Notes under the pieces: generated by a model
Seen by the model: the letters and a program-made list of their open reading frames with translations, nothing else
Database searches by the model: none
Told to the model about the DNA's origin: nothing
From: Mariprofundus sp.
GTDB lineage: Bacteria; Pseudomonadota; Zetaproteobacteria; Mariprofundales; Mariprofundaceae
Assembly: GCA_021772775.1 (NCBI GenBank)
Contig: JAJFLH010000039.1
Span: 1-64,000 of the forward strand
Reading direction: 5' to 3'
Length of the DNA stretch: 64,000 bases
Part shown: positions 26,086 through 39,087 of the stretch, piece by piece
Layout of the letters: each line of letters begins with the position of its first letter
How positions within the stretch are numbered: the first letter of the stretch is position 1
Position numbers and translations under genes: made by a program

Positions 26086-26907
26086 CTATAGCAATTTCCA
26101 TAATCGTTTGCCTTTAAAGAGCACCTGCTCCCAGCGCGACACGTTTCCTTCCGGTGTTTCTGTCGCTCCCGACACAAAGTATCCGCCTTTCTGCATACTC
26201 CGTGCGATGCGATCAACTACTTTGGCGCGCTCTTCCGGGGTGAAATAGATCAACACATTGCGACAAAACACCACGTCAAATGGCCCATGCCGACGTACGG
26301 TAGAAACCAATTGATCTTCCACCAGATTAGCATGTGCAAATCGCATCATCTTCTTCAATTCTGGCCTTACATTCCAGCGATTACCATCCTGTTCAAAAAA
26401 ACGTACCAGTTGTTTGATCGGCAAACCACGCTGCACTTCCATCTGGCTGTAAACACCCTTACTCGCCGCAGCCACCGCCTTCACCGAAAAGTCTGTTCCC
26501 AAGATATGTACTCGGCCAGGGCCTGGCACACTCTCACTCGCCGTCATGGCAATCGAACATGCCTCCTGCCCTGTAGAAGATGCCGCTGACCATACATTAA
26601 TCTTGCCATGCGCACCTTTGGCCGCCGTTAATTCAGGAAAAATCAGATCACGCAACGCATCAAAGGGATATTGATCCCGAAAAAACAGTGTTTCATTCGT
26701 TGTCATGGCATCGAGAACCTGCCTGGCCAAATCACCATCAGGTTTCTGGCGAATAGTGCGAGACAATGCATTCACATCATCAAGTCCATGTTCACGCAGC
26801 AAGCGGGTCATGCGCGACTTGATCAAGTATTGTTTATCATTATTCAAAGCCAGTCCAATTTTTCGCAGTAAGAATTCCTGCATAAACTTAAACTCAAGCG
26901 GTTGCAT
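26086..26907 (-). CDS. cheR: Chemotaxis protein methyltransferase CheR
   Basis: 273 aa. N-terminal helical CheR_N domain and C-terminal SAM-dependent domain with NVWSAASSTGQEACSIAM, where the common ACSTGEEPYS motif reads AASSTGQEACS, and FDVVFCRNVLIYF. It methylates Glu residues of MCPs using S-adenosylmethionine. Start ATG 26907 has AAAGGAGG 6 bases upstream. Overlaps cheB by 14 bases; last gene of the chemotaxis operon. Confidence 0.93.
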   Translation of the reverse strand: MQPLEFKFMQEFLLRKIGLALNNDKQYLIKSRMTRLLREHGLDDVNALSRTIRQKPDGDLARQVLDAMTTNETLFFRDQYPFDALRDLIFPELTAAKGAHGKINVWSAASSTGQEACSIAMTASESVPGPGRVHILGTDFSVKAVAAASKGVYSQMEVQRGLPIKQLVRFFEQDGNRWNVRPELKKMMRFAHANLVEDQLVSTVRRHGPFDVVFCRNVLIYFTPEERAKVVDRIARSMQKGGYFVSGATETPEGNVSRWEQVLFKGKRLWKLL

Positions 26908-27973
26908 CTTTGCCTCCTTTCGAAGCCATCTGGCGCAGTGCATCAGCTATTTTATTCAAAGGCAACACATCATGAGCAGCGCCGACTTTAACTGTTGCGC
27001 CGGGCATCCCCCACACGGAACTACTTGCCTTATCCTGCACAATCACATGACCACGCCCTTCATTAATCTGTTTAGCGCCATCAGCGCCATCAACTCCCAT
27101 ACCTGTCAGCACTACAGCGAGTGTTTTCACTGTTGGCGCCAAATCAGCCAAGGAATAGAATGTTCTGTCCACAGCAGGCTTGCAGTGATGCAATTTCGCC
27201 CCATCAATCAACTTCGCAAACAACTTCATATTTTGACGCACCACTTCCATATGAATTTCTCCCGGCGCTAAATATACATGCCCCTGCTGCAGCTCCATGC
27301 CATCTTCAGCCACTTTACATATCAATGCAGACTCTTTATCCAGCCGGGATGCTAGGCTGTATATAAATAACTTGGGCATATGCTGAACAATCACAATCGG
27401 CAACAGCATCCCTGCCGGCAAAGCAGAGATCACCTGACTCAAAGCTGCCGGACCACCGGTACTCGAACCAATAGCAATAATATCGGGCTTAAACGACAGT
27501 GGTCTCTTGAACCGAACCGACTGCGTTTTTGGGCTTCGGTTTTGCCCCCCCACCACCTGGCTTACGCTTTGAGCCATACGCGAACAGCGGGCTAATCGTT
27601 TCGTCAACTCGCCCTGAGCATCGGCACATGAAGCATTGGGCTTTAGAATGAAATCACAGGCGCCTGCTGAGAGTGCTTCAAGGGTGCGTTCAGCATTCGA
27701 TTCTGTTTCGCCTGACACCACAATCACCTTGGTTTGCGGCGCATCTGTTTGCAAAGCATTCAACACATCAAGACCGTGCATCACGGGCATTTCCATATCT
27801 AACACCAGCAGATCAGGTTTTAATTTAACAATCTGCCGCAAAGCCATTTCACCATTACTAGCGGTACCAACCACTTCAACATGATCAATATCGGTCAGGC
27901 AACGGCGCATAAACGAACGAAACACAACCGAATCATCTACAATCAGGGTGCGCAGCACCGGATTGGATCTCAT
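26894..27973 (-). CDS. cheB: Chemotaxis response regulator/methylesterase CheB
   Basis: 359 aa. Receiver domain 1-125 (IVDDS, VLDMEMPVMHG, ending ILKPN) and methylesterase domain from about 165 with catalytic Ser in GSSTGG, His in VQHM and Asp in GMGVDGADG. Removes methyl groups from MCPs when phosphorylated by CheA. Overlaps cheY upstream (ATGA) and cheR downstream. Confidence 0.95.
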   Translation of the reverse strand: MRSNPVLRTLIVDDSVVFRSFMRRCLTDIDHVEVVGTASNGEMALRQIVKLKPDLLVLDMEMPVMHGLDVLNALQTDAPQTKVIVVSGETESNAERTLEALSAGACDFILKPNASCADAQGELTKRLARCSRMAQSVSQVVGGQNRSPKTQSVRFKRPLSFKPDIIAIGSSTGGPAALSQVISALPAGMLLPIVIVQHMPKLFIYSLASRLDKESALICKVAEDGMELQQGHVYLAPGEIHMEVVRQNMKLFAKLIDGAKLHHCKPAVDRTFYSLADLAPTVKTLAVVLTGMGVDGADGAKQINEGRGHVIVQDKASSSVWGMPGATVKVGAAHDVLPLNKIADALRQMASKGGKDATA

Positions 27974-28347
27974 GCACTACACTCCAGGCCAACAATATTT
28001 AACTTACCGGCGATCATATCTTTATCAAAAGGCTTCATTACATATTCATCGGCACCCGCCGCCAGCGCTTTCAGCATCGATGGCATACTCGTTTCCGTTG
28101 TCACCATCACCACTTTTGGAGAGCTGGAGAACTGGCTCATGCCTCGCATCGTGATTAAAAAATCGTAGCCATTCATCACCGGCATATTCCAATCCAACAT
28201 CACCACATCCACATCGGGATGCTCTTCCAATTGCTCTATTGCCTGCAACCCATCGGCAGCTTCGATAGACTCAAAACCCAATTGATTCATAATTCTACCG
28301 AGTGCAACACGTACAACTTTGGCATCATCCACGATCAAAGCTTTCAT
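27970..28347 (-). CDS. cheY: Single-domain response regulator CheY
   Basis: 125 aa receiver: IVDDAKVVR, phospho-acceptor Asp in VVMLDWNMPVMNG, switch Thr in VTTET and Lys in VMKPFDKD. Likely one of two CheY outputs of this operon (the other is at 32031). Overlaps cheB by 4 bases. Confidence 0.92.
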   Translation of the reverse strand: MKALIVDDAKVVRVALGRIMNQLGFESIEAADGLQAIEQLEEHPDVDVVMLDWNMPVMNGYDFLITMRGMSQFSSSPKVVMVTTETSMPSMLKALAAGADEYVMKPFDKDMIAGKLNIVGLECSA

Positions 28348-28487: not shown

Positions 28488-28988
28488 TTAATGCAGTACT
28501 CTCAATTCATCCATATCTTCAGGCTGTGGAATAGTCATGGCGATAAAACGCTCCACATTGACCAGCACAACCACGCGTTCTTCCTGTTTGAGTACACCTT
28601 CACTAACGTCTTGCCAAACACGATCCAACGTTTTGGGGGTTTTCTCAAATGAGTCAGGGTCAAGATCGATTACCTCACCCACTTCATCCATCACCAAACC
28701 AAAATCTTCACCAGACATGGTCTCAACAATCGCCACCCGATACACATCCGTTTCCCGATCAGCTAGGCCAATCACTTTGCGCACATCTAACTGGGTAATC
28801 ACCCGGCCTCGCAAATTGATCAAGCCCATCACAGCATCGGCAGACAATGGCATCTTCGTACATGTTTGTGGCATCACAACTTCCCGCACCTGCCTGACTT
28901 GCAGACCCAACCATTGCTCGCCTACCCTACAGGTTAACAGCTCCTGACTTTGCTGAGGCTGCACTGCTATTAACGCATTTTCACCCAT
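28488..28988 (-). CDS. cheW: Chemotaxis adaptor CheW
   Basis: 166 aa from ATG 28988, with GAGGAGGG 6 bases upstream; an upstream in-frame start would add only 8 residues. CheW fold: LLTCRVGEQWLGLQV, INLRGRVITQLDVRK, DFGLVMDEVGEVI. Bridges MCPs and CheA. Begins 10 bases after the cheA stop. Confidence 0.93.
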   Translation of the reverse strand: MGENALIAVQPQQSQELLTCRVGEQWLGLQVRQVREVVMPQTCTKMPLSADAVMGLINLRGRVITQLDVRKVIGLADRETDVYRVAIVETMSGEDFGLVMDEVGEVIDLDPDSFEKTPKTLDRVWQDVSEGVLKQEERVVVLVNVERFIAMTIPQPEDMDELRVLH

Positions 28989-28998
28989 ATTTCCCTCC

Positions 28999-31941
28999 TC
29001 AGACCTGACCACTGGAGATGCCTTCTACACCTCCGCCAGCTGTTTTTTTCGTTGCATATGAATTCATCATAGATTGCAATGTAGAGGTCATTGTTTGCCT
29101 ATCAAACTTCACCAGCACATCATCAAACAACCCACGTCGTTCATCACCCTGCTCTCCTGGAGGTGTGGCCGTTAGCGCCACCACGGGCACTCCCTTCAAA
29201 CGCTCTTGCGTAGCAATCCAGCGAGCCAGCTCATAACCATCCATATTCGGCATCTCAATATCGGTCAATATCAAATCCGGTACTTTATCAGCTAGAATTT
29301 TACAGGCCTGTACACCATCTTCTGCAGTCCATATCTCACAATCCATCGCTTGTAATACAGGCACCACCAAATTTCGGAAGAAAGGTGCATCCTCGACAAA
29401 CAGAATACTCTGACGCACATGATTAGATTTCTTTTCTGGTGTGCTAGTAAACCAGTCCGGCACAGCGCGTTTGATCACATCAAACACATCCACCACATCC
29501 GTGACCTGGTCCAATATAACAGTGCTACCCAAGAAAAACTCTTTTTGAACCGGCTTCTTAATTTCCAGAGGAACTTCCAAAATATCAACAATCTCATCAA
29601 CTTGCAGACACATTCTATGCTCGCCATCAGATAGAATTAGACCATACACCTCATCACAGTCTGGACTTGGCTGGCCAATCATTTCACCCCAGCGTAACAC
29701 TGTAATCACTTCACCATTACGATACTGCATCACCTCAGAACCGCTGGATGATTCAATTTTATCCGCCGCAAATCGTTCCAAACGCTCAACCAGAGCCATC
29801 GGAATGGCAAAACGACTAGCCTCATGTTTAAACACCAACACATGTTGCATTTCATTCACTGCCACCAACTCTTCATCATGACTTGTCATAACCGCCTGAT
29901 TGGCTTCATCAGAAAGCTCCATCATTTGGGCCAAACCATTACAGTCAAGAATCGGAATCACACTTCCATCACCCAAAATACTACAGCCACCGTACTGATT
30001 GAGTTGCTGAAAATGAACACCAAGTGGTTTGACCACAATCTCCTCAGCACCATAAATTTCATCGATCAGGATACCAAAAGTACGATCTCCCATATCCATC
30101 ACCACAATCGAACCATCATGTGGCACGTCTTCAGCTAATTTCAGAGTTTCAGCCAATTTAAGAATAGGCAATAGACGACCACGCAAGCGAAAGAAGGGCT
30201 GCCCCCCAATACTACGCCAGTCATCCGATGAAGCTCTTGCACTTAACAGTTCATGCACACTGATCTGGGGAATAGCAAAGTGCTTATCACAACAACGCAC
30301 AATCATGGCTGAAATAATCGCCAGAGTTAGCGGAATTCGGATACGGAGCTGAGTACCTTTGCCCATCTCTGAGCTAATATCGACACTACCACCCACTTTT
30401 TCAATGGATGTTTTCACCACATCCATGCCCACACCACGACCTGAGAGGTTACTCACCTTCTCCACGGTCGACAGGCCTGCATTGAAAATTAACTGCAGTG
30501 CGGCCTGATCATTCATTGATGCTGCCACATACTCATCAATCACACCCATCGTTACCGCTTTGGCTTTTACTTTTTCAGCATTAATTCCACCACCATCATC
30601 GGCAACCACAATCACAATAAAACCGGATTCCTGTGCAGCGCTGAGCCGCAACGTACCAGCTTCGGGTTTACCCGCAGCTCGTCGAACATCCGGCATCTCC
30701 ACACCATGATCACAACTATTGCGAATAATGTGCGTCAAAGGGTCTTTCAGTGCAGTCAGAATACTGCGATCGAGTTCAGTCTCTTCACCCTCCATGAGTA
30801 CATTGATGCGTTTATCCAATGATTTACTCATATCGCGCACCACACGCGGCACACTGTTCCATATGGTTTTGATCGGCTGCATGCGAGTTCGTAACAACTG
30901 CGACTGCAAACGCTCTGTCACCTGATCAACTTCACGCCCCACCCGCATAAATTCCATAGAACCTGATTCCTGCACCATGGCCAGCAAACGGTTACGTGTC
31001 AGCACCAGTTCACCGACCTGATTCATCAATGAATCAAGTAGCTCCACATCCACACGGATGCTGCCTGCATTTTTGGGCGTAACTGCAGCTTGCACCATCT
31101 CTTGTGGCTGAGCTTGCGGTTGTGCCTGAACAGCAGGAAGGTTTTTCTCTTCGGGTTCTTTTCTTTCCGGCTCAAGCGTCGCTTCCACAGCAACGGCTTC
31201 AGACTCCACTGCGGCCTTTTCAACCACGACCTCTTTTTCTTCAGTGTTTTTTTTGCTCGCACCACCTTGCGATACTACTTTTTTGGCCAAACCTAATATT
31301 TTCAACGCATCAGATGGCTCTACAGCATCGAGATCACGCAGCGGCGCGAATCCTGCCGCGATGACTTGTTCAGGTGTATGCCAGCCTTGCTCACTCAAGG
31401 CTGCGCGCACATCGGCAGAAAAATCACCTGCCCAATCGTCCACTGTAATGTCACCAGCTACGCTCTCTTTGGCCACTGGAGCTTTTGTTTGTTTTACTGG
31501 CTCTGGGGCGGCTACTGCTTCTTTTGCCACTGACGTAATACCAGCCCCTGCCATCATATCCACCAAACGCTCTGCTGCCTGTAAGCGTGAAATGACCGAA
31601 CTGTGATCCAACACAGGCTCTACCCCATTGGACTCCAAGCCGTGTAAGTAGTCATTGATGCCATCAGCACAATCGAGCAATAAAGAGACAATATCATCAT
31701 TAACTGCAAACTTTAGTGAACGAATTTTACTCAGCAAGTTCTCACCTGCATGCGCCAACTTTTCCAGTCCGCTCAAACCTAAAAATCCACAGCTACCCTT
31801 GACCGTATGGATGACCCGGAAAATCGCATTGACCAAGTCTTCATCTTGAGGATTAGATTCCAAGGCCATCAACTGCTCTTCAATAGAAGCCATATTCTCA
31901 CTGCTTTCAGTTAGAAACTCCGCCAATAATTCCTGATCCAT
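28999..31941 (-). CDS. cheA: Hybrid chemotaxis kinase CheA with two CheW domains and a C-terminal receiver
   Basis: 980 aa. Order: Hpt 1-105 with phospho-His in IHTVKGSCGFLG; an extra small helical domain about 165-230 (TPEQVIAAGFAPLRDLDA); acidic Ala/Glu/Gln linker to about 290; dimerisation helices; HATPase_c (HIIRNSCDHG, ADDGGGI, GRGVGMDVV); CheW-like domain 1 about 535-670; CheW-like domain 2 about 690-825; receiver about 845-960 with LILTDIEMPNMDG. GAGGAG lies 8 bases before ATG 31941. A fused receiver may act as a phosphate sink or feedback domain (inference). Confidence 0.95.
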   Translation of the reverse strand: MDQELLAEFLTESSENMASIEEQLMALESNPQDEDLVNAIFRVIHTVKGSCGFLGLSGLEKLAHAGENLLSKIRSLKFAVNDDIVSLLLDCADGINDYLHGLESNGVEPVLDHSSVISRLQAAERLVDMMAGAGITSVAKEAVAAPEPVKQTKAPVAKESVAGDITVDDWAGDFSADVRAALSEQGWHTPEQVIAAGFAPLRDLDAVEPSDALKILGLAKKVVSQGGASKKNTEEKEVVVEKAAVESEAVAVEATLEPERKEPEEKNLPAVQAQPQAQPQEMVQAAVTPKNAGSIRVDVELLDSLMNQVGELVLTRNRLLAMVQESGSMEFMRVGREVDQVTERLQSQLLRTRMQPIKTIWNSVPRVVRDMSKSLDKRINVLMEGEETELDRSILTALKDPLTHIIRNSCDHGVEMPDVRRAAGKPEAGTLRLSAAQESGFIVIVVADDGGGINAEKVKAKAVTMGVIDEYVAASMNDQAALQLIFNAGLSTVEKVSNLSGRGVGMDVVKTSIEKVGGSVDISSEMGKGTQLRIRIPLTLAIISAMIVRCCDKHFAIPQISVHELLSARASSDDWRSIGGQPFFRLRGRLLPILKLAETLKLAEDVPHDGSIVVMDMGDRTFGILIDEIYGAEEIVVKPLGVHFQQLNQYGGCSILGDGSVIPILDCNGLAQMMELSDEANQAVMTSHDEELVAVNEMQHVLVFKHEASRFAIPMALVERLERFAADKIESSSGSEVMQYRNGEVITVLRWGEMIGQPSPDCDEVYGLILSDGEHRMCLQVDEIVDILEVPLEIKKPVQKEFFLGSTVILDQVTDVVDVFDVIKRAVPDWFTSTPEKKSNHVRQSILFVEDAPFFRNLVVPVLQAMDCEIWTAEDGVQACKILADKVPDLILTDIEMPNMDGYELARWIATQERLKGVPVVALTATPPGEQGDERRGLFDDVLVKFDRQTMTSTLQSMMNSYATKKTAGGGVEGISSGQV

Positions 31942-32030: not shown

Positions 32031-32408
32031 TTAAAACAACATACTGCCAACAGTCTCAATCAAAGCATCCGGCTCAAAAGGTTTGACTAACCAGGCTGAA
32101 ATACCTGAGTCATGACCTACGGACTTTTTCTCTTCACCTGACTCTGTGGTCAACATCACGATGGGGGTGTCAGCATATGCAGGCGTTTGACGCAGAGCTT
32201 TAATCATGCTCAAACCATCGAGATTAGGCATATTCAAATCAGTGAGAATCAGATCGAAGGGGTTATCTGCACTGGCCATCGCCATATCAAGGCCTGCCTG
32301 TCCATCTCTTGCTTCACTCACAACAAAGTCAACGCCCATTAAAGTACGTTTTACGGTAATCCGTACCATGGTGGAATCTTCTACCACCAGAATTCGTGGA
32401 GCACTCAT
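32031..32408 (-). CDS. Second CheY-like response regulator
   Basis: 125 aa receiver with VVEDSTMVR, phospho-acceptor Asp in LILTDLNMPNLDG, Thr in MLTTESG and Lys in LVKPFEP. It overlaps the giant channel-like gene by 4 bases (ATGA), so it is translated with it. Its placement beside CheZ-like domains makes it a candidate target for dephosphorylation (inference). Confidence 0.92.
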   Translation of the reverse strand: MSAPRILVVEDSTMVRITVKRTLMGVDFVVSEARDGQAGLDMAMASADNPFDLILTDLNMPNLDGLSMIKALRQTPAYADTPIVMLTTESGEEKKSVGHDSGISAWLVKPFEPDALIETVGSMLF

Positions 32409-35400
32409 AACTCCTCCTTCAAGACCATACGCTCTTCTTCCATCACATAACGTTTTTCAACTTCTTCTTTCCATATTGCCGTGGCCGGAGCATCAGCTGT
32501 TGTTTTACCCCAATCATGCAAGCATGTTTTCACATTATTCATACGCTGTGATACCCGGTCGATATTCTGTAAGTCAGTCAATGCTGCCATAATACGATCT
32601 TCGATCTCGGGGCTTACCCCCATATCAAGAATCTCAGTCAGCTTGATCAGCCCATCCTCGGCACTCTCTTCAAGCAGTTGGACAGACCCCTCCACCTGCT
32701 TCTCCATCACCTTGAGTAATCGCTTATCGGCAACTTTCGGCCATACTGAATCAGCCATAATTTCGCCCTCCAATACATCTTCAATAGCGGTAACTCCGCT
32801 TTCTTTCACTTCTTCTTTCACTTCTTCAGCCACTTCTTCAGCCACTTCTTCAGCCACTTCTTCAGCCACTTCTTCGGCCACTTCTTCAACCACTTCTTCA
32901 ACCACTTCTTCGGCCACTTCTTCGGCCACTTCTTCGGCCACTTCTTCGGCCACTTCTTCGGCCACTTCTTCGGCCACTTCTTCAACCACTTCTTCAACCA
33001 CTTCTTCGGCCACTTCTTCGGCCACTTCTTCGGCCACTTCTTCGGCCACTTCTTCGGCCACTTCTTCAGCTACTTCTTCAGCTACTTCTTCAGCTACTTC
33101 TTCAGCTACTTCTTCAGCTACTTCTTCAACCACTTCTTCAGCTACTTCTTCAGCCACTTCTTCAGCTGATGCAGCAGTTAACACATCATCCAGGGCCAAG
33201 CGCTCTTCCCGCATCACAAAACGACCCTTCATCTCATCCAACCAGGTAAGCGGCCTATTTTCATTTGGCAAAGTAGCTAGCCAATCTTGCATCGTGTATC
33301 TGACATTGTTCAGCCGCTGATTTACCCGATCTATATTTTGCAAATCAGTCAATGCCGCCATAATCAAAGCTTCAACCTCTTCGCTGACACCCATATCGAG
33401 AATTTCCATCAGCTTCATCAATGCATCTTCAGAGCTCTGTTCCAACATCTCTACTGAACCTGTTACCTGCCTCTGCATTACATCAAGCAGTCGTCTATCT
33501 GCATGCGCAGGCCAACATGACTCTTCTATCAACTCTCCTTCCAGTGCCACGGTACTCGGTGGTATATCCTCTTGCACCACATTAAGCTCTGCAGCGACTT
33601 GCTCTTGCTCCACCACTGCAGCTGTTGCTCTCTCAACCGCCACATTTTCAGACAACACTTTATCAACCTTTGTAACAGCAACCGGAGCATCCTCTTTCAC
33701 ATCTGCCACGGTTACGGCTGGTTTTTCAGGCCTTGGCTCCTTTTCAACCGCCTTAACACGCTTATCTGTTGCCTGATCCGTCTGAGCCAATACACCCCTA
33801 CGACAAAACAACAGCTCTTCACTTTCCAATGGCAGGTCCATTTCCCTCACCTGCACACCACCAAGCAGATGCATAGCATGCATATGATCATTTTGAGGTG
33901 ATGGAAATGTACCATCCAAAGCCTCAAACACATTCCAGCCATCACGCTCATGCTCCGGCATCAGATAGCCCATCAACAACCAACCACGCCGCAATGATTC
34001 ACGATAAACATCGAGCCAATTGATATTGGACTGGTTACGAGCGTCATCAAGCAATCGTGTCACAGCGACACTCTCTACCAGCACCGTGTCACCCAACATC
34101 GCATCGACAAAACGGAACACCTTATCATTATGGCAACTCCCTTCATCATTCACATGTCTATATGCCTCATTGAGCAAGCGCCTTGCCATAAAGACATCGT
34201 GAAACGCATCGGGAGAGCCAACATGTGTCTCAAGCAAGGGATAATCATGCGATGCCTGCACAAAACCAGCCACATTCGTGCCCTCTCTAGGCAGCACCAT
34301 TAACTTCGGTGGCGTCCACCATTTCGCTTTGGCTTTGCGCGCCGACAACATCCGGGAGAGCTCGTGATACCACAGCTCTAACAGAGAGTCTTCGCCACCG
34401 GCTTCAGCACACTGCTCAGGATAGAGCATGATAACTTTGCAACCACGCAGATGAGTGACCAACGCTTCAGCATCAAAGCCATCCCAGACATGCACCGAAG
34501 CCTTTAATTCACAAGCTTGCCCCATCCTTGTAACTACATCCTGCAACTGCCGATTCGCCCTTGTGAGTCCATCTTCGTCACTGGTACTGAACACATGCAC
34601 AGTTAATTTATGATGTTTAAGCGCCATCTCTTCAACCATGGCAGGCAGGCCCTGATGCCAACCCAGAAAGATCATTGTTAAATCCCATGTTTCCGGCCAG
34701 GTGAACGTTTTCAGTCTATTTTGATGCAGGCTATTATCGTATAAACCAGCCTCATCACTCATCGCCCGCGTCATCATACCAGACCACAAACTGGGCGTAT
34801 TTCCTATTGCAACCACATCGCTAAAGCTCTGTTCACCATCAAGCCGCATCAGATCACTGAACAAAACGGGGTCACCCTCTTCATTCATTGCCGCCAAGAC
34901 ATTGACACCCTGCTCAAAACATTGTGTCAACCAGACTTCCAATTCAACCTGAAGCTCATCACCCGGCCGGCTTAGCATTGCAGCACCATCACTGCGCTGC
35001 ACCTTCATACTCCAGGGCAATGAAAAAAGTCCCGTTTCACCCGCCACCACATCCAACAAACGAATACCTAGCTCGGGCATATAGGCACAGTGATGCATCT
35101 GATAGAGCATACGTGCCGTGACCGAAGCCGAATCGAGCACCCCCATATGCAATGATTCACTGTAGAGCGTATGCAAACGCTCCGGCAAAGCCGCATCGGT
35201 CACGACAACACCATTAGCCTTCACGTCACGTTTCAGGTGATGCATATCAACCACATCCTGCTGTTTCTCTTTGCCTTCAGCCGGATGGAAAAAGAACAAT
35301 TGGCGAATCCCGGATAGTTGAAAACGTTCAATCAAAGCGCGCTCACCATTCTCCACCTGACGCACGGTCATCCAGGCACCAATCCTGCGCGCATCAGGCA

Positions 35401-36709
35401 ATGGCTCATCAAAGAAGATCCATACCGAAGCAAAGTTTCGACGCATTCGCCCGAACAGGCGATTGAGTTGTTTTAGAATCGCTACAGACTGCTCATTACC
35501 GCCAACAAAAAGCAGATGTTCTCGCGCCGATAAGGAGCCGTTGGAGAGCTCACGCAGCAGGTAATGCATCACATTCGCCCCCAACCCAACCAACAAGGCA
35601 AAGAAAAACACGCCAGACATCACCAACAGAACAGTCAGACCCATCAACCAAGGGGAGAAAGCCTCAGGAGGCGCGGTACCCGGATCCATAATAATCCTAA
35701 ATACAAACAGCACAATCTGAAACGGCGCATAATCAGCCATATTCACCACATCATCTTCATTGATATCCATTTCTGGATAGAGATAAACCACTGACATTGA
35801 GCCGATCACCAGCAGCGCTATCAACATACCTGTGAGCATACTAAATTCACTGCGTACTGCTGGCATCTTCGCCACTTTACCGGCCGCGATCACAACATTC
35901 TTCAAAGGATTGAGCATTATCAGGAAACGCCCCAAACGTAACAGCACCCAATAGATTGAGAGCTCCGGAATTAAGCCCATCACAGCCACCGCAGCAAAAG
36001 CATCAATGGGTAAAAAGGTCATTTCAGCGGTGCGTCGATTACCTTTCGGTAATATTTTGTACATCGAAAAACCGCGACAACATACTTCCAACAACAACAC
36101 TATGCCTGCATAGAGCCCCACACTTGGCACGGCCAGGCCGATGCCTGCCAGTGCCACCACCAACATCGCAAAGGGCAATGAATAGACAAAGGTATCGTGG
36201 CTTAGAAAACGAAAAATGCGCAGCATACGAAGCAGATACATACCTCGAAAGAGTCGCGCCAGACGCAAATAGAAACCTTCGGACAGTATACTGGAAGGCA
36301 CCAGCATGGCGCTAAACAGGCAGATGGTGGCAATGCCATCAAGAGCCAGAAACAACAACTCCGTTTTGTTTCTCCAGCCATTCTCCATCTGAAGCCACAA
36401 GCGCAAACTCCATTCCAGTGTAAAAAACAGTGCCAGAGGAATCATCACCCATAAATAACGCTCAAAAGCACACAAGCCCAGAGCCACCACAATCAACAGA
36501 GCGTAACGGGGATGTGAAAACACCCGTTCACCCAATAACAACCAGGAGCGCCTACTATGACCACCAAACAACTGATATTTTAAGCCCGTTGTTTGCAGAT
36601 CTTCTGACTCCGACCCACTCACTACCGCATCAGCGGCTTTGCACGGAACCTCAGCCACAGGCTGTGACTGAGGTTGTTGTTCAATATGGATCGACTTCTC
36701 TTCTGTCAT
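32405..36709 (-). CDS. Giant channel-like membrane protein with two CheZ-like domains
   Basis: 1434 aa, not a known named protein. Hydrophilic N-terminus to about 62; TM helices about 68-168 ending in an S4-like helix with Arg at 149, 152, 155, 161, 164 and 167; a second TM group 175-268; pore-like pair 290-385; then a Rossmann/RCK-like cytosolic part starting HLLFVGGNEQSVAIL (about 398), recalling CASTOR/POLLUX-type channels. The C-terminus has two copies (about 1060-1180 and 1310-1434) of a helical domain with LQNIDRVNQ/LQNIDRVSQ, separated by AEEV repeats. No ribosome-binding site precedes ATG 36709; see the heptamer at 36853. Between MCP and cheY, so a role in chemotaxis is inferred. Confidence 0.85.
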   Translation of the reverse strand: MTEEKSIHIEQQPQSQPVAEVPCKAADAVVSGSESEDLQTTGLKYQLFGGHSRRSWLLLGERVFSHPRYALLIVVALGLCAFERYLWVMIPLALFFTLEWSLRLWLQMENGWRNKTELLFLALDGIATICLFSAMLVPSSILSEGFYLRLARLFRGMYLLRMLRIFRFLSHDTFVYSLPFAMLVVALAGIGLAVPSVGLYAGIVLLLEVCCRGFSMYKILPKGNRRTAEMTFLPIDAFAAVAVMGLIPELSIYWVLLRLGRFLIMLNPLKNVVIAAGKVAKMPAVRSEFSMLTGMLIALLVIGSMSVVYLYPEMDINEDDVVNMADYAPFQIVLFVFRIIMDPGTAPPEAFSPWLMGLTVLLVMSGVFFFALLVGLGANVMHYLLRELSNGSLSAREHLLFVGGNEQSVAILKQLNRLFGRMRRNFASVWIFFDEPLPDARRIGAWMTVRQVENGERALIERFQLSGIRQLFFFHPAEGKEKQQDVVDMHHLKRDVKANGVVVTDAALPERLHTLYSESLHMGVLDSASVTARMLYQMHHCAYMPELGIRLLDVVAGETGLFSLPWSMKVQRSDGAAMLSRPGDELQVELEVWLTQCFEQGVNVLAAMNEEGDPVLFSDLMRLDGEQSFSDVVAIGNTPSLWSGMMTRAMSDEAGLYDNSLHQNRLKTFTWPETWDLTMIFLGWHQGLPAMVEEMALKHHKLTVHVFSTSDEDGLTRANRQLQDVVTRMGQACELKASVHVWDGFDAEALVTHLRGCKVIMLYPEQCAEAGGEDSLLELWYHELSRMLSARKAKAKWWTPPKLMVLPREGTNVAGFVQASHDYPLLETHVGSPDAFHDVFMARRLLNEAYRHVNDEGSCHNDKVFRFVDAMLGDTVLVESVAVTRLLDDARNQSNINWLDVYRESLRRGWLLMGYLMPEHERDGWNVFEALDGTFPSPQNDHMHAMHLLGGVQVREMDLPLESEELLFCRRGVLAQTDQATDKRVKAVEKEPRPEKPAVTVADVKEDAPVAVTKVDKVLSENVAVERATAAVVEQEQVAAELNVVQEDIPPSTVALEGELIEESCWPAHADRRLLDVMQRQVTGSVEMLEQSSEDALMKLMEILDMGVSEEVEALIMAALTDLQNIDRVNQRLNNVRYTMQDWLATLPNENRPLTWLDEMKGRFVMREERLALDDVLTAASAEEVAEEVAEEVVEEVAEEVAEEVAEEVAEEVAEEVAEEVAEEVAEEVAEEVAEEVVEEVVEEVAEEVAEEVAEEVAEEVAEEVAEEVVEEVVEEVAEEVAEEVAEEVAEEVAEEVKEEVKESGVTAIEDVLEGEIMADSVWPKVADKRLLKVMEKQVEGSVQLLEESAEDGLIKLTEILDMGVSPEIEDRIMAALTDLQNIDRVSQRMNNVKTCLHDWGKTTADAPATAIWKEEVEKRYVMEEERMVLKEEL
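32806..33167 (-). repeat. About 30 tandem 12-bp repeats coding for (A/V)EEV
   Basis: Inside the giant gene, residues about 1180-1301. The unit reads GAAGTGGCTGAA with third-base variants grouped in blocks, which points to expansion by slippage or unequal crossing over. The product is a long acidic (A/V/K)EEV tract that probably forms a rigid helix or spacer between the two CheZ-like domains. Confidence 0.95.
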
Positions 36710-36834: not shown

Positions 36835-39087
36835 CTACTTGCGTAATCCGTCCAAAAAATCGGCCACCCGTCGCTGTAGCTCATTGCCCTTTTCACTCAA
36901 GCCTGCCGCTACGTTCAACACACCCACAGCAGCCTGTCCGGTCTGCTCTGCTGACTCGGTCACACCACTAATCTCTTCAGAGGCACGATGGGTAGCATCA
37001 GAAGCATATTGCACACTCTGAGAAATCTCATGAGTCGCTGAATTCTGCTCTTCAGTCGCGGCTGAAATAGACTGATTAATCTCATTCATGCGTGAAATGA
37101 TTTCTGAAATATTGCCAATCGCCTTGGCTGCACCATCGCTTTGACTCTGAATTTCACCAATTTTCTCAGAGATTTGCTCCGTAGCTCGTGCCGTCTGATT
37201 AGCCAGCTCTTTCACCTCACCCGCCACCACAGCAAAACCACGACCGGCATCTCCTGCCCTGGCAGCCTCAATGCTGGCATTCAGAGCCAGCAAATTGGTC
37301 TGCTCAGCAATATCGGTAATCACCCGAATCACCTCACCAATCTGTTGAGAGGCTGTAGAGAGTGTACTTACAGTTTCATTGGTTTTATTCGCCTCATCCA
37401 CTGCCTGAGAGGAGATATCCCCTGCTTCATGCACCTGACGGGTAATTTCCGCAATCGAAGCGGACAACTCTTCAGCTGCCGACGCCACCGTCACCACATT
37501 TTGACTGGCTTCCTGTGAACTACCTGCCACAGACTCTGCCTGTGCGGTTGCCTGTTCTGCCATGGCCGAAAGTGACTCTGAAGACTCCTGCATCTGGTTA
37601 CCGAAATCTAAAATTTCACCAACCACAGAGCCGATATTCTGTTCAAAATCATTGGCTAGTTCCTGGCGTACGGTCACATCATGCCACGACACCAGCACCG
37701 ATAGCCAGTTACCCTGAGCATCATCGATAGGATAAGCGGAGAATTCAATATTGCGTCCGGCGGCCTCAAAGCGTGCTGTCATCGGCAAATTGGACCGACT
37801 GGCCAAAATACTACGTTGATGGGCCGGTTTTGCATGGAATATATCAATACATTTACCCACCAGCTCATCTGCACTGCAGGGCAAAAAGGATTGAATACTT
37901 CGAAACAGAGTCACCGCAGATGGATTCATATAAGTGACCGTCAAATCATCCACATTGGCCAGCATCATCGCTTCAGGACTAGCTTCTACCACTCCCTGCA
38001 ACTGGTAAGCGTGGCGCGTGGTCTCTTTGAGTTTATCATATGAGATCACGACTTTTCCGATAGCTCCGGGCACTTGAATATCCAGATCGACAGAGGTATC
38101 ACCATCATCCAGCGCATCCATCGCGGTGCCAATCTGCTCCAACGGCCTGGTCACAGAGCTGGCAATAAACCACAGCAGTACCAACATGCCTACCATCAGC
38201 AGAATAGCCAGACCCCAGAATGTGAATGAGGCAGCGTTATGAATAGAATCTGCCTCTGCGCCCAGCTTATCAAGAAGCTTGCTTAGCTCCGCATCCAAAG
38301 CATCCACCACTGGAGTCACTTTAGCTTTATAGCCCTCTTCAAATCCAGCATGAGTCTCTCGAACTGTCACATAAGCTTTAGCGTAAGCCTGAAAGTCATC
38401 GTCATATTGCTGCAATAGCCTCAGGAGAAAGCGCTGATCCCCCATACTCATGGCTGAAACAGCAACCAGTTCAGAAAAATGCACTACTTCCTTGGCATGT
38501 TTCTGCAGATATTTTTCACTGCCACGCAGCATAAAGTCCTTCTCATATCTACGCATCAGCAGCATGGATACTACCTTTTTGTCACCGCCCAGCTGTTTCA
38601 GTTTAGCTTCAATCTCATGCGCCGAATTGCGTAACTTGCCGCGCAAACCATCTTTTTCCGTCAAACCAAGGTGGATCTTTTCATCTGCAAAATGGTGTGC
38701 ATCAGTATTAAAAGCAAGCAGTGCAGCCCGGCCATCTCCCGCCAGCTGTCGCAAGCTATCGCTCGGCAGTTTTTCACTCAGCATTTTGAATTTTTCCAGA
38801 TTATTCAACTCTAATCGCCCGTAAGCTTCACTTAGCCCATCCGCAGTTTCGAGCATCTGTAACATTTCGATATACTGATTGGAAAGAGAGGTCGCAAGCA
38901 TATCCACCTTCTCCATATGCGCTGCCGCCACATTTTTACGCTGATCCACCTCATCCAAATTGGCCAGTGTCTTCTCATGCACCACGCCCACCAATAAAAT
39001 TGAAAGCAGTACCAATGCACCAATTGCGATCATGCGCTGTGCTACTGTATATTTCTCATGCCACTGCTGTGCCCGTTGAACTGCCAT
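36835..39087 (-). CDS. Methyl-accepting chemotaxis protein with HBM-type sensor and PAS domain
   Basis: 750 aa. TM1 about 18-36; periplasmic helical bimodular (HBM) domain to about 290 with the signature [19 protein letters not shown]2 about 290-312; HAMP; PAS about 365-475; signalling domain with the hairpin tip [23 protein letters not shown] domains are known to bind small organic acids in other MCPs. First gene of the chemotaxis operon, AAGGAGG before ATG 39087. The terminal codons contain a T TTT TTG heptamer. No C-terminal NWETF-like CheR tether is seen. Confidence 0.95.
36853..36859 (-). other. Candidate -1 frameshift heptamer T TTT TTG near the MCP stop
   Basis: In the MCP frame the codons are GAT TTT TTG, six codons before the TAG stop. 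A -1 slip leads into a frame open for 48 codons up to the giant protein's ATG at 36709, and on through that gene. The pattern is seen; its use is unproven. No downstream stem was checked by computation. Confidence 0.35.

Follow-up and report, generated by a model that had tools for sequence, protein, structure and literature searches.

A 64,000-nucleotide stretch of Mariprofundus DNA (the window) contains, among chemotaxis genes, an open reading frame for a 1434-residue protein that resembles an ion channel, which raises the question of what such a protein does there. To our knowledge, no chemotaxis system has an ion-channel subunit, and none emerged from our searches of the open-access literature. 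A first-pass annotation, made from sequence alone, had located this reading frame at positions 32405 to 36709 without giving its strand, and had suggested that membrane potential or ion flow could feed into CheY signaling. Our analysis supports the architecture and the operon linkage well, with fold, domain order, linkage, and conservation established by sequence or by prediction.

Gene, operon, and distribution

The gene lies on the minus strand, in the frame running from an ATG at 36709 to position 32405; the plus strand of the same interval is full of stops. It encodes a fusion of a channel-like part with CheZ-like tail domains. Its end overlaps by 4 bases the gene for a stand-alone receiver, CheY (32031 to 32408, minus strand; Pfam Response_reg, E = 2.3e-23), and 125 bases separate its start from a directly upstream MCP gene (36835 to 39087, minus strand) with HAMP and PAS domains. 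The reading frame, the 4-base overlap, and the place between MCP and cheY, all noted by the first-pass annotation, were thus upheld, the strand being minus. Also on the minus strand are CheA (28999 to 31941), which Pfam resolved into Hpt, dimerization, and ATPase domains, two CheW-like stretches, and a C-terminal receiver; CheW (28488 to 29012), an open reading frame in a conserved position; a second CheY (27970 to 28347), whose position is conserved in most relatives; and CheB (26894 to 27973) and CheR (26086 to 26943), both open reading frames. Pfam recognized the MCP, CheY, and CheA of the operon; the whole 1434-residue protein gave no meaningful match in Pfam or NCBIfam, only coil noise. 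PDB sequence searches with the channel protein, as a single sequence and as a profile, returned noise except for weak matches to Kv voltage sensors (E = 0.5–1).

The survey of relatives covered 78 genomes of the class, with an orthologue defined as a che-type match to the channel part. Such orthologues were found in 44 of the 78 genomes (55 when any match in the match table, paralogues included, was counted), and the channel gene is therefore not a chance product. The carriers are Zetaproteobacteria, iron-oxidizing marine bacteria comprising Mariprofundus (M. erugo P3, M. micogutta ET2, and strains KV and EBB-1), Ghiorsea, and uncultured relatives; M. ferrooxydans PV-1 has paralogues only. Close orthologues of the adjoining CheY (70–90% identity) occur in 42 genomes and the tail domain in 43 genomes of the class, and the channel, CheY, and tail-domain sets coincide, save for a few genomes with contigs ending at the gene and for one, G057, described below. 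The che-type sequences form one clade in the tree, apart from one row that is a paralogue mislabeled as che-type.

An MCP gene lies directly upstream of the channel gene in all 39 loci with readable upstream sequence (its end −1 to 264 bases away), and CheY lies directly downstream in 30/30 loci that could be read on that side, with a spacing of −4 to +11 bases in 27 of them; both counts include a few near-duplicate loci. Orthologues were thus found in a che operon wherever the contig was readable, rather than mainly outside such operons, and a conserved place in the operon, our criterion for a component of the Che system, is met. Flagellin was present in 41/44 channel carriers versus 15/34 other genomes (Fisher p = 2e-6, ignoring shared ancestry); because the genomes are related, we regard this co-occurrence as a trend and not a clean test.

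The window's genome encodes two further channels with tandem voltage-sensor-like units and RCK domains that lack tail domains (L044:7933-10836 and L045:7680-10553, both on G000:C22). Full-length matches to the paralogue profile among 299 sampled Pseudomonadota were confined to the Zetaproteobacteria. Downstream of the L045 channel, which ends in GDDDVELF, come a lone CheY of its own and a CheA-CheW-MCP set. In its clade, a lone CheY follows in five of the five loci read (in one with an extra open reading frame between), this CheY being 43% identical to that of the window operon; CheA, CheW, and MCP come after CheY in some loci, and the C-terminus is GDDDVELF or near to it. Two separate clades of the family thus pair a channel with CheY, which makes coincidence less likely. 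The L046-type paralogues are located outside che operons.

Predicted sensor units, pore, and gating ring

The AlphaFold2 model of the channel protein was built from 39 sequences (pLDDT 81, pTM 0.77). Its chain passes through four helices (residues 67–167), four more (residues 178–266), S5, a pore helix, S6, and two Rossmann-type RCK domains, RCK1 and RCK2. We designate the helix groups voltage-sensor-like unit 1 (S1–S4; 36209 to 36511, minus strand) and unit 2 (S1′–S4′; 35912 to 36178, minus strand). The assignment of unit 1 rests on the modeled helices, on alignments, and on the weak Kv matches given above, and that of unit 2 on the modeled helices and its homology to unit 1, of which it is an internal duplicate (hhalign 96.6%, E = 6.5e-10). 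Parts of unit 1 were modeled with modest confidence (pLDDT 55–80). S4 of unit 1 carries Arg at positions 149, 152, 155, 161, 164, and 167 and Tyr at 158, a pattern conserved in alignments of relatives, and Glu99 of S2 and Asp124 of S3 are invariant. The invariant residues of unit 2 are Glu208, Asp236, Arg258, and Arg261, and both units have retained an acidic side chain in helix 2 and Asp in helix 3, as voltage sensors do. S4′ is charge-poor, with two Arg in the che-type clade versus four in the paralogues. The protein meets the sequence and fold criteria that we used for the voltage-gated ion channel superfamily, namely Arg at every third residue of S4, acidic partners in S2 and S3, and a predicted four-helix sensor followed by S5-P-S6. 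The arrangement is unusual in that no described channel is known to us to have two sensor-like units per pore; a search of the open-access literature for a channel with two sensor units per pore returned nothing relevant.

S5 (residues 283–310; 35780 to 35863) and S6 (residues 353–389; 35543 to 35653) flank a predicted re-entrant pore helix with its filter (residues 329–345; 35675 to 35725), all encoded on the minus strand. The filter reads MDPGT in the window protein; Asp342-Pro343-Gly344 is invariant in orthologues and paralogues, and the next residue is mostly A or T, with N in paralogues. The criterion of a TVGYG-type K+ channel filter thus failed, and because this filter is unlike any K+ filter, both conduction and the ion of the channel are undetermined. 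Before the pore helix, the turret contains an EF-hand/dockerin-like loop, DINEDDVVNMAD (residues 315–326; 35732 to 35767, minus strand), recognized by its sequence pattern. This pattern, DxNxDGxxNxxD, corresponds to an EF-hand/dockerin-like calcium loop and is present in 33/35 orthologues and 26/31 paralogue rows; it is absent in the L045-type clade. In the channel of an iron oxidizer, such a loop could possibly bind Ca2+ or another divalent ion, e.g., Fe2+.

The RCK1-like domain (about residues 399–660; 34730 to 35515, minus strand) and the RCK2-like domain (about residues 676–972; 33794 to 34684, minus strand) are supported by the model and by Foldseek. The best PDB matches were the gating rings of MtDMI1 and LjCASTOR (7vm8, 6o7a, 6o7c, and 6o6j; E about 1e-15 to 1e-12), followed by Slo2.2 and Slo1 over 928–992 columns and then by GsuK and MthK; the soluble part resembles the MtDMI1 and LjCASTOR rings, and the whole chain resembles Slo channels. 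Neither the channel protein nor its paralogues gave a Pfam match indicating membership of the CASTOR/POLLUX/DMI1 family. The paralogue profile matched ordinary bacterial Kv channels (TVGYG or TLGYG) through unit 2 and the pore, in one case reaching RCK1.

Structure prediction, with its voltage-sensor-like bundles, pore fold, and CASTOR/Slo-like gating ring, bore out what the first-pass annotation had described of this region, i.e., transmembrane helices at residues 68–168, an S4-like helix with Arg at nearly every third position (149–167), a pore-like pair at 290–385 (in the model, a helix pair with a re-entrant helix at 283–389), and an RCK/CASTOR-like cytosolic part. That annotation had missed unit 2, the EF-hand-like loop, the CheZ-like nature of the tails, and the two paralogues.

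The C-terminal tail domain and its link to CheZ

The tail domain comprises about 115 residues and occurs after linkers in one to three copies per protein. The window protein has two, copy 1 (residues 1058–1177; 33179 to 33538, minus strand) with Asp1127 and Gln1131 and copy 2 (residues 1315–1434; 32408 to 32767, minus strand) with Asp1384 and Gln1388. Between them lies a Glu-rich linker of EEVAEEV repeats (residues 1178–1314; 32768 to 33178, minus strand), and TRF identified in its DNA a 12-bp unit repeated 30 times at 32807 to 33166. This repeat tract also yields a long spurious antisense open reading frame (32481 to 33320, plus strand). AlphaFold2 predicted a long two-helix hairpin with two short helices (pLDDT 88.8; copy 2). 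Across 46 aligned tail copies, the D and Q of a DxxxQ motif (D70 and Q74) are invariant. DXXXQ is the active motif of CheZ (PMC7750401), and its placement on the second helix of the hairpin, according to the model and the alignment, fulfills one of the CheZ criteria that we applied.

Direct comparisons with CheZ were negative. No protein in the 78 class genomes scored above the cut-off of the CheZ model PF04344, i.e., the class has no canonical CheZ; hhalign comparison of the tail-domain and CheZ profiles gave 0.2%, and Foldseek with the tail domain found no CheZ-like structure. The tail profile did reach the C-terminus of MCP-like proteins (∼400 residues) in other Proteobacteria, and this MCP-tail family matched the tail domain (hhalign 96.2%, E = 2e-9) and, weakly, CheZ itself (47.7%, E = 2e-4), with FQDRVSQ aligned on FQDLTGQ and hence DRVSQ on the catalytic DLTGQ. 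Downstream of the MCP-tail gene, all loci examined (fifteen loci, fourteen distinct genes) have a gene for a lone CheY-type receiver and, after it, CheA. The proteins at these loci (L234, L235, L236, and L238–L249) have an LQFQDRVSQ domain and a DITFF-type tail. Pfam has no model for the MCP-tail domain, and the MCP-like proteins with an LQFQDRVSQ tail are possibly an overlooked CheZ-like family. Because the direct tests fail but the MCP-tail family links the tail to the CheZ motif, we use the label CheZ-like and not CheZ; the relationship depends on a motif and on a family that stands between the two, and phosphatase activity is inferred. The first-pass statement that the C-terminal domains are tied to the Che system held, by homology to CheY-linked proteins and by operon position.

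One genome without the channel, G057, has 11 flagellin matches and a stand-alone tail-domain gene (L177:9817-10302, 161 residues) between MCP and CheA, which suggests that the tail domain belongs to the Che system independently of the channel. In G027 and G059, the domain occupies its own frame downstream of the channel. We rejected the interpretation of several other apparently separate tail-domain genes as fissions; contigs often break in the Glu-rich linker repeat, and some genomes therefore seem to have two half genes. Also rejected was the notion that the class lacks any other CheY phosphatase. CheX was strong in four channel-less genomes (G012, G008, G083, and G044), where it may possibly be a replacement CheY phosphatase, and CheC/CheX-like proteins are encoded elsewhere in some carrier genomes, including the window's own, so the tail domain need not be the sole CheY phosphatase.

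Proposed coupling to CheY, rival readings, and known systems

We propose that the protein is a channel-sensor in which voltage or ions control the dephosphorylation of CheY by the CheZ-like domain. We assign this reading a probability of ∼0.5. Conduction, voltage dependence, phosphatase activity, and the direction of signaling are inferred and not shown, and the first-pass idea of an input of voltage or ion flow into CheY remains an inference. Subunits would probably form a tetramer, an assembly inferred as for CASTOR (PMC6697748), with two voltage-sensor-like units in each subunit. Each pore, lacking TVGYG and guarded by the EF-hand-like loop, would be combined with a CASTOR/Slo-type double-RCK gating ring, and long linkers, the second very Glu-rich, would carry one to three CheZ-like hairpins acting on the CheY encoded immediately downstream. 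In the version that we consider most likely, a change in membrane potential or in a bound ion or ligand would rearrange the channel and its gating ring; this would make the CheZ-like domains more or less accessible, change how they pair, or alter their activity, and CheY-P would be removed faster or slower as a result. In this way, the cell's energetic or ionic state would bias the flagellar motor beside the ordinary MCP-CheA input. A bolder reading, against which we would lean slightly, makes a dedicated channel, gated by voltage and ions, a core part of the chemotaxis pathway. It would sense membrane potential, with the EF-hand-like turret loop perhaps adding a response to periplasmic divalent cations, and would directly control CheY-P via a CheZ-like phosphatase, providing electrical or energy taxis without ligand sensing by MCPs.

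Two rival readings, each less probable than the preferred one, are not excluded. Coupling could run in reverse, the CheZ-like tails being receptors for CheY-P, which would gate the channel so that chemotaxis signaling acts on ion flux or membrane potential. This reading draws on the same parts and the same CheY gene partner, and the sister clade without a CheZ-like domain still precedes a lone CheY, for which its acidic-aromatic GDDDVELF tail could be a docking site. Invariance of DxxxQ and its connection to the CheZ active motif, however, suggest catalysis rather than mere binding, and through linkers this long force would reach the ring less directly. Alternatively, the protein could be a pseudo-channel, i.e., a non-conducting sensor of ligand or voltage, or merely an anchor that tethers a CheY phosphatase to the membrane or the receptor array. 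Consistent with this, the filter is non-canonical, the second S4 has lost most of its charges in the che-type clade, and in other Proteobacteria the bearers of the homologous tail are MCP-like membrane proteins and not channels, for which anchoring may apply. Against it, sequences that span about 45–80% identity all retain the DPG filter and the acidic residues of S2 and S3, and the turret loop is almost as constant; such conservation suggests that the pore region still matters.

We consider it unlikely, although it is not excluded, that the tail is an adaptor, not a phosphatase, that binds CheA or receptors or places the channel at the pole. The negative direct comparisons with CheZ by profile and fold favor this view, as does the localization of Escherichia coli CheZ itself to the poles through CheA binding (PMC7750401); the alignment of catalytic positions between the MCP-tail family and CheZ, and a neighboring gene that is always CheY, argue against it. 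Least probable, and already disfavored, is an ion-homeostasis channel merely co-transcribed with che genes. The L046-type paralogues outside che operons are compatible with such a bystander, but the strict operon linkage and an in-frame tail domain whose relatives are all CheY-linked count against it.

If the preferred reading, a channel-sensor acting on CheY through its CheZ-like domain, is true, a single molecule with a channel output on CheY would link bacterial electrophysiology with motility and would offer a testable way for energy-limited iron oxidizers at redox gradients to steer by membrane potential or ion supply. The finding further delineates a family of prokaryotic channels in which each pore has a pair of voltage-sensor-like units, and it draws attention to CheZ-like domains, carried by membrane sensors next to CheY, as a possibly overlooked family. 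Our search of the literature revealed no channel that is a dedicated che operon member with a CheZ-like output; it covered open-access texts only and is weak evidence of absence.

Among known systems, LjCASTOR and MtDMI1 (POLLUX family) share with the window protein the fold of a double-RCK gating ring in one chain (Foldseek), and the CASTOR pore likewise lacks TVGYG (PMC6697748). CASTOR has 4 predicted transmembrane segments (PMC6697748), whereas the window protein is modeled with about ten transmembrane helices, including two voltage-sensor-like units, and adds CheZ-like tails and an EF-hand-like loop in the turret. In Slo1/BK and Slo2, too, a single chain contains a voltage sensor, a pore, and a double-RCK ring, but the window protein differs in its two sensor-like units, its DPG[A/T] filter, its prokaryotic origin, and its signaling tail. 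Bacterial Kv-RCK channels (e.g., G036 and L188), which the paralogue profile matches through unit 2, the pore, and RCK1, have TVGYG or TLGYG, a single voltage sensor, and a single RCK or none, with no che genes among the flanking open reading frames read. CheZ (PF04344) has the helical hairpin, DxxxQ, and CheY partner in common with the tail domain, which does not match PF04344 and differs in the spacing before the motif (LQNID versus FQD). The MCP-tail proteins have a homologous tail and the same gene order relative to CheY, but their sensor part is an MCP signaling domain rather than a channel, and their tail ends in DITFF. Ci-VSP and TRPM7 couple a voltage sensor or channel with an enzymatic output, a resemblance limited to how they work; both are eukaryotic with substrates other than CheY, and their output domains are not known to be homologous to the tail. 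Every module of the window protein has known relatives, and it is the combination of a channel with a CheZ-like output in a che operon that appears new.
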